A stretch of DNA of 64,000 nt from Candidatus Thorarchaeota archaeon (GTDB taxonomy: Archaea > Asgardarchaeota > Thorarchaeia > Thorarchaeales > Thorarchaeaceae). Position 1 is the first letter of the stretch; each line of letters starts with the position of its first letter. Below are positions 38,618 through 39,805 of the stretch, in pieces. The stretch is taken from assembly GCA_021498125.1 (NCBI GenBank), contig JAIZWL010000001.1, positions 509,434 through 573,433 of the forward strand, read 5' to 3'. The notes under the pieces are model-generated. The model was not told where the DNA came from. It ran no database searches and was given only the letters and a program-made list of their open reading frames with translations. Made by a program: the position numbers and the translations under genes.

Positions 38618-38737
38618 TCCGCAATTGTGTCAGAAAGACACTCGTCATTGGTAGTATTATGCCTTGCGTACATCTATACTAGCGAACATTTTTAGTCATG
38701 AGCACGCTCTTTGTATGAATACTGGACTGTGTGTGCT

Positions 38738-39118
38738 ATGCGTGAGAGCGAGATCGCCATTGAATTCGAGTTTGATGATGGGCTTGTACTAAAAGGTGTT
38801 ATAGATCGTGTCCATGCGCCACTTATTGTGGACGACATCAAGACAATGCTGCCACTGGAAGGACGGACTGCATTGTTGCGGGATGAGATGAAGATCACTC
38901 TGGACATCTCGCGTGGGAACCAGAAGCCAGTACGTGATGTGAAACGTGGTGATATTGCATATATGCCGCTTGGGGATTCTCTCTGTATCTATCTCAAGGA
39001 TATGCACACATTTAGTCCCGTGAATGTCATAGGTAAAATCACCACTGATGAAGAGCGATTATCTCAGCTCAAACAAGTTAGACGAGGCAGTAAGGTTCAG
39101 ATCAGGCTCTCCACATGA
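38738..39118 (+). CDS. Cyclophilin-like fold protein (TM1367/DUF369 type)
   Basis: About 126 residues, all beta-rich, with the family pattern GDIAYMPLGDSLCIYL followed by SPVNVIGKI. Proteins of this family have a cyclophilin-like barrel without proven isomerase activity. I start at ATG 38738 (MRESEIAIEF); TTG 38711 would add nine residues with no clear support. It is convergent with the E2F/DP-like gene, only eight bases apart. Confidence 0.8.
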   Translation: MRESEIAIEFEFDDGLVLKGVIDRVHAPLIVDDIKTMLPLEGRTALLRDEMKITLDISRGNQKPVRDVKRGDIAYMPLGDSLCIYLKDMHTFSPVNVIGKITTDEERLSQLKQVRRGSKVQIRLST

Positions 39119-39126
39119 ACTCGGCT

Positions 39127-39690
39127 CTATAGCCGTTGAAAGCTCTTTAGGAGTAGTTTGGTCTCATCCTTTTTTACCTCAGTGGGATCCGCGGTCATTC
39201 CCGGCTCATAGGTCTCAATTATTACCTCAAGCCCTGAGTCTGTCACACTCTTGATGCCCTTTGTAGAGAGTGCACGTATAGTTAGCATTGTTGTATTGAA
39301 TTCTGTCTTTGAGGCGGCTTCGATGAGTTGTGTCTCGGATCGGGTCTTTGTCTTTGCAATGCGTAATTGCTCTTTGAGTTCAGCTACCTGAACTTGGAGC
39401 TTGTTACGAGTATCGATCACATCATCAAGTGTCGCCTTCATAGACTCATATTCCTTCTTTGGAACAAAGTCCGCCATCTTGTCAATCCATGTCACTGTGG
39501 TGCCATCAAATCTACGAGTTGTCTTTATGAAACCCATTGCTTTTAGTACAGCAATGACATCATAGACTCTCCTCTTTGGGGTTTCAAGTCTTGTAGCTAT
39601 TTCATCACTACGGATTCCCTCTTCGCCACACTCTTTGAGCAATTCCACTGTATCTCTGGCGAGTTCGACGAGTTTCCGTTTAGACGTCAC
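39127..39690 (-). CDS. E2F/DP-like winged-helix transcription regulator
   Basis: 187 residues. Residues 8-70 form a winged helix whose recognition segment reads PKRRVYDVIAVLKAMGFI (38-55), matching the RRxYDxxNVLxAxxxI core that contacts DNA in eukaryotic E2F and DP proteins. It is closed by a TTVTWID strand like their IQWxG. Residues 76-115 are a coiled coil, and the last 70 residues are strand-rich. The order of winged helix, coiled coil and small beta domain is that of E2F/DP proteins. Other archaeal winged helices lack the RRVYD motif as far as I know. The start is GTG 39690 after GGGGTG. It is divergent from the cDPG synthetase-like gene. Confidence 0.75.
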   Translation of the reverse strand: MTSKRKLVELARDTVELLKECGEEGIRSDEIATRLETPKRRVYDVIAVLKAMGFIKTTRRFDGTTVTWIDKMADFVPKKEYESMKATLDDVIDTRNKLQVQVAELKEQLRIAKTKTRSETQLIEAASKTEFNTTMLTIRALSTKGIKSVTDSGLEVIIETYEPGMTADPTEVKKDETKLLLKSFQRL

Positions 39691-39778: not shown

Positions 39779-39805
39779 TCGATTTTTCGTAATTTCGATT
39801 TTTCG
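39779..39805. promoter_or_regulatory. Two TCGATTTTTCG direct repeats in the E2F-like/cDPGS divergent region
   Basis: Identical 11-bp copies at 39779-39789 and 39795-39805, one every 16 bp. They lie 89 bp from the regulator start and 100 bp from the cDPG synthetase-like start. The position suits an operator read by the neighbouring regulator. TTTTTCG loosely recalls the T-rich start of the E2F site, but the GC core is missing. Confidence 0.4.

Follow-up and report, generated by a model that had tools for sequence, protein, structure and literature searches.

An E2F/DP-type winged-helix protein encoded by a single gene in Thorarchaeota and other Asgard archaea

The window, a 64,000-nucleotide stretch of thorarchaeal DNA, encodes a protein whose DNA-binding domain is homologous to that of the E2F/DP transcription factors; the gene is single copy, relatives occur in many Asgard lineages, and a conserved element is present in the thorarchaeal promoters. 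E2F/DP is the switch that begins DNA replication in plants and animals. We consider it probable (roughly 70%) that the gene belongs, as a single-copy archaeal member drawn from pre-duplication stock, to the E2F/DP winged-helix superfamily, and that its product would dimerise with itself, bind a palindromic element and regulate its own promoter, dimerisation, element binding and the sign of regulation being the parts that we infer. The archaeal gene would share its ancestry with the stock whose duplication gave rise to E2F and DP in the eukaryotic lineage.

A review mentions briefly that E2F homologues have been reported in Asgard archaea (PMC7617429, with reference to Spang 2015 and Zaremba-Niedzwiedzka 2017), and these presumably belong to the same family as the thorarchaeal protein; a purely eukaryotic E2F, the general view that the earlier note relays, was therefore already an outdated picture, and the surprise is correspondingly lower. 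A literature search, mostly of papers outside subscription, returned no description of the architecture, tree, promoter element or synteny of an archaeal E2F-like protein. New here are the promoter element CGRAAAATCG and a conserved tail-to-tail Cyclophil_like neighbour, which offer concrete handles on the origin of the circuit. A single-copy archaeal relative with no detected pocket protein, together with a candidate operator, makes the origin of the E2F/DP circuit experimentally testable with respect to the ancestor's binding site, its homodimerisation and its targets before E2F and DP split.

The gene and its DNA-binding domain

The open reading frame named in the earlier note is real and occupies exactly the interval given in Table 1, on the minus strand, which that note had left out; its product includes ETPKRRVYDVIAVLKAMGFI. 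Directly 5' of the start codon stands GGGGTGCAATT, and GGGGTG before the start is common to most thorarchaeal orthologues. The source genome measures 3.11 Mb and is 98.2% complete, with the window on its contig C1; the protein falls in the same family group as its Thorarchaeota relatives, and the window is that of a Thorarchaeote.

Table 1 Features of the E2F-like locus, in positions of the window.
Feature	Positions	Strand	Details
E2F/DP-type transcription factor gene	39127..39690	(-)	187 aa, GTG start
E2F_TDP winged-helix domain, residues 7-69	39484..39672	(-)	Pfam PF02319, 42.2 bits; AF2 winged helix
RRxYD recognition motif (RRVYD), residues 40-44	39559..39573	(-)	R40, R41, Y43 and D44 invariant in alignment A1
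Coiled-coil helix (predicted), residues 78-119	39334..39459	(-)	AF2, pLDDT >90 over most of its length
Small beta module at the C-terminus (strands 137-168), followed by helix 176-186	39130..39282	(-)	AF2; beta module shared by almost every archaeal member aligned
Neighbouring Cyclophil_like (PF04126) gene, tail-to-tail arrangement conserved	38711..39118	(+)	54 bits; 8 bp from the stop codon of the E2F-like gene
Promoter near-palindrome CGAAAAATCG, proximal copy (-99)	39780..39789	(-)	
Promoter near-palindrome CGAAAAATCG, distal copy (-115)	39796..39805	(-)	

The RRxYD and VLxAM pattern that the earlier note had likened to E2F and DP stands above chance. Pfam E2F_TDP (PF02319) matched the protein at 6.9e-11 and 42.2 bits, well over the cut-off of 25.7; RR.YD is kept in 71/71 relatives, and alignment A1 shows no variation at the wing tryptophan. 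This gene is the only PF02319 match in the source genome, and a search of 14 control genomes with the same profile gave zero matches. All 37 aligned archaeal relatives match E2F_TDP, and a PDB search with the profile of these 37 placed E2F8 (3.3e-12), E2F4 (1.6e-7) and DP2 (0.0072) on top, the best match outside E2F/DP reaching E 0.14, so that only E2F/DP was significant. The same note had seen a likeness to DP in particular, and the recognition helix (RRRVYD...VLxAM) is indeed very similar to that of DP1/DP2 (1cf7_B), but the archaeal profile is closer to E2F (hhalign probability 97.4, E 9.6e-12) than to DP (85.3, 5.9e-6), and the protein does not have the long insert that precedes RRxYD in DP. 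E2F and DP match each other at a probability of 91.2, so the archaeal family lies about as close to E2F as DP does, if not closer.

Convergence on RRxYD by an ordinary, TrmB-like archaeal winged-helix regulator, with the E2F match reflecting general wHTH similarity, is largely refuted and, in our judgement, hardly credible. The protein does share a winged helix and weak sequence similarity with TrmB (PF01978, 22.4 bits), and one phmmer match to the TrmB structure 3qph (0.0034) came ahead of E2F8 (0.0055); however, the TrmB score lies under its own cut-off (25.6), while that for E2F_TDP is far above its threshold, and the profile of the 37 relatives found E2F/DP alone at significance and no TrmB chains in the PDB. 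Within the source genome the best TrmB proteins score 58-85 bits against the TrmB profile, with the E2F-like gene twelfth at 23 bits, and the best TrmB paralogue carries SRIYD, lacking the RR of RRxYD. Fold comparison does not distinguish wHTH families: in a full-length search the matches were winged helices of a generic kind (Zalpha, MarR, RPC39), by which the family cannot be assigned, and the absence of E2F4 and DP2 among the matches listed is no counter-evidence. Taken with the tree below, in which the genome's own TrmB proteins fall outside the clade of archaeal and eukaryotic E2F/DP sequences, the Pfam scores, profile-profile comparison and PDB profile search place the DNA-binding domain with E2F/DP and not with TrmB or TFE. 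That the winged helix is a genuine E2F/DP relative is well supported, and we take the protein to be a true archaeal, single-gene transcription factor of the E2F/DP superfamily, for which equivalence to a full E2F beyond the DNA-binding domain is possible.

Compared with eukaryotic E2F1-6 (DNA-binding domain 1cf7_A), the archaeal protein shares the E2F_TDP winged helix, RRxYD, the wing tryptophan and, in the thorarchaeal lineage, a predicted coiled coil that follows, but it is much shorter, is encoded by a single gene and has no detected DP partner, pocket protein or, by sequence, marked box. The atypical E2F7/8 (4yo2) are known to function independently of DP and to have no CC-MB, and E2F8 is the best PDB match of the archaeal profile, although it has two winged helices per chain where the archaeal protein has one.

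Distribution, gene neighbourhood and origin

Matches to the family were present in 75/227 Asgard genomes and were single copy in 72 of the 75, the named carriers being Thor-, Hel-, Baldr-, Odin-, Sif-, Borr-, Sigyn-, Jord-, Frey- and Heimdallarchaeota and one Bathyarchaeote. The last of these, HyVt-197 (L103), has the top archaeal E2F_TDP score seen (50.3 bits) together with Asgard synteny, and no other among the 398 genomes of its phylum exceeds the E2F_TDP cut-off, which suggests transfer or a binning error. Divergent E2F_TDP proteins of two further groups, f3 (L010, L026) and f9 (L035, L041), carry another conserved C-terminal domain (hVxLhF...LSN...EM..RDVKR) and are possibly another Asgard E2F branch. 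No DP partner was found in the source genome (~98% complete), where the E2F_TDP gene is single, and a search for a pocket protein with the RB_B profile alone gave only matches below the cut-off; six control genomes gave similar ones, which are likely to be TFB cyclin folds.

The Cyclophil_like gene, single copy in the source genome, lies tail-to-tail with the E2F-like gene in 27/35 named loci from ten lineages, and at the bathyarchaeal locus the two genes are convergent with a 4-bp overlap. This neighbour was not found at the Heimdall, f3 and f9 loci.

Trees were built from 75 columns with seven wHTH proteins of the source genome as outgroup, and many of their forks lack resolution. Archaeal and eukaryotic E2F/DP sequences formed a joint clade apart from those seven proteins, TrmB included (support 96/89, with few eukaryotic rows), eukaryotic E2F and DP formed one group (91/82, or 94/89 in a tree with fewer outgroups), and monophyly of the archaeal side was not rejected (p-AU 0.55). 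The eukaryotic rows were partly entered by hand and compared with PDB chains, except for E2F1 of Drosophila, E2Fa of Arabidopsis, the winged helix of human E2F1 and the final residues of E2F8b. This topology, which singles out no Asgard lineage as the closest, fits one gene that predates the E2F/DP split. The patchy occurrence in 75/227 Asgard genomes might instead point to a gene passed from eukaryotes to Asgard archaea, a source we consider very unlikely because the eukaryotic rows form a single group, archaeal monophyly stands unrejected, and the distribution is both wide and divergent, with synteny kept in ten lineages.

Predicted coiled coil and C-terminal module

The earlier note had proposed that the E2F/DP domain order continues through a coiled coil into a small strand-rich end. 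As predicted secondary structure that order is present: behind the winged helix, the AF2 model (mean pLDDT 87.5) has a long helix, four short strands and a C-terminal helix, with residue ranges as in Table 1. Equivalence of these parts to the E2F CC-MB, in contrast, is tentative. Foldseek with residues 70-187 against the PDB ranked the E2F1 CC-MB (2aze_B) first, at a non-significant E of 0.77, and in a VIA comparison of the same residues the CC-MB of E2F1, E2F4 and E2F5 occupied rows 1, 3 and 4 and were the only chains aligned over 83-89 residues, helix and strands together, where other chains covered the helix only. A full E2F-type protein, in which winged helix and coiled coil lead into a divergent marked box and which dimerises as in E2F-DP and passed to eukaryotes as one unit, would account for these ranks, but we regard it as doubtful because the E value, the VIA scores (Z 4.1-4.4) and the rmsd of 8-10 A lie in the range of chance. 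By sequence, Pfam detected no marked box in the C-terminal part, and profile-profile comparison with CC-MB gave no signal above reversed controls. In E2F structures the opening strand of the marked box leads into a helix that the archaeal model lacks. The coiled coil itself varies by lineage: it is present in Thor, Hel, Baldr and Odin members and absent from those of Heimdall and Bathy, which have just 49-68 residues beyond the wing and still keep a short beta-type module. A common origin of the C-terminal part with the E2F CC-MB is possible on the modelled structure. For the reading that we prefer, a single-copy regulator of pre-duplication stock, the thorarchaeal protein would most likely form a homodimer through the helix that follows its winged helix.

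A candidate operator in the promoter

The near-palindrome CGRAAAATCG is strongly over-represented 5' of thorarchaeal E2F-like genes. It occurs exactly in 23 of 38 promoters (200 bp each) and in 33 when up to one mismatch is allowed, where simulation leads one to expect 0.1 and 1.7, and 200 other promoters from the same loci held 0 exact copies and 2 with at most one mismatch; we caution that the 38 promoters are orthologous, so that common ancestry prevents 33/38 from being read as 33 independent events. The main copy lies ~30-40 bp upstream of a TATA-like box, with a second copy often 16, 36 or 56 bp off. In the source genome the 10-mer occurs 20 times, against once for its reversed control, and two of the 20 are at the E2F-like gene.

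These patterns suggest that the protein probably controls its own promoter through CGRAAAATCG as a candidate element. The RRxYD recognition helix would most likely bind GC-containing palindromic sites, and regulation would most likely act at the copies upstream of the TATA-like box, the protein being the presumed partner of the element. Alternatively, CGRAAAATCG might be the site of a different factor or belong partly to the divergent CobW-like gene; as to the latter, at locus L080 the CobW-like gene is 1150 bp away and the element remains beside the E2F-like gene. A stricter 12-mer, TTCGRAAAATCG, occurred 0-2 times in each of six related genomes and never at their E2F genes, so no thorarchaeal regulon is visible by that measure.

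Outside Thorarchaeota, one Baldr promoter of the E2F-like gene carries TTTGGCGC, and in two Heimdall promoters of the gene (L097:5851-5862, L099:1539-1550) there is a classic E2F site, TTTGGCGGGAAA, which in one Heimdall genome is the sole exact copy of that 12-mer. Both resemble the E2F site TTTSSCGC, a likeness that was noticed post hoc and is statistically weak. Across 37 non-Thor upstream regions TTTSSCGC was seen 3 times against 0.6 expected, with a maximum of 4 in 300 simulations; the comparison, again made post hoc, bears only indirectly on binding to such sites and is no more than suggestive. Near matches to TTTGGCGGGAAA exceeded the reversed control two- to threefold in two Heimdall genomes and not in a third, and most of the 20 inspected lay inside genes; given this weak enrichment and intragenic placement, no Heimdall regulon is claimed.

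A bolder extension, which we think unlikely, is that Asgard archaea keep a living, single-gene, pre-duplication E2F/DP: a homodimer with an E2F-type CC-MB that autoregulates through E2F sites of the canonical type in Heimdall and Baldr archaea (TTTGGCGGGAAA, TTTGGCGC) and through CGRAAAATCG as a derived form in Thorarchaeota. The G1/S transcription circuit would then go back to a self-regulating archaeal switch older than pocket proteins.

Several further elements were observed around these sites. A second tandem pair of CGAAAAATCG, likewise with 16-bp spacing, is present at L143:1501-1526 (G000:C5:125341-125366), between a small 89-aa ORF and a membrane gene that we take, from its sequence, to be EMC3/DUF106-like. 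Adjoining this pair is TCTAGTAAA, which is also found in many promoters of E2F-like genes. Baldr and Odin promoters of the gene carry TTGGCGCC, and upstream of the CGRAAAATCG copies at thorarchaeal genes, for example at L051, L055 and L056, there is a further conserved element, TTTTACTAGA.
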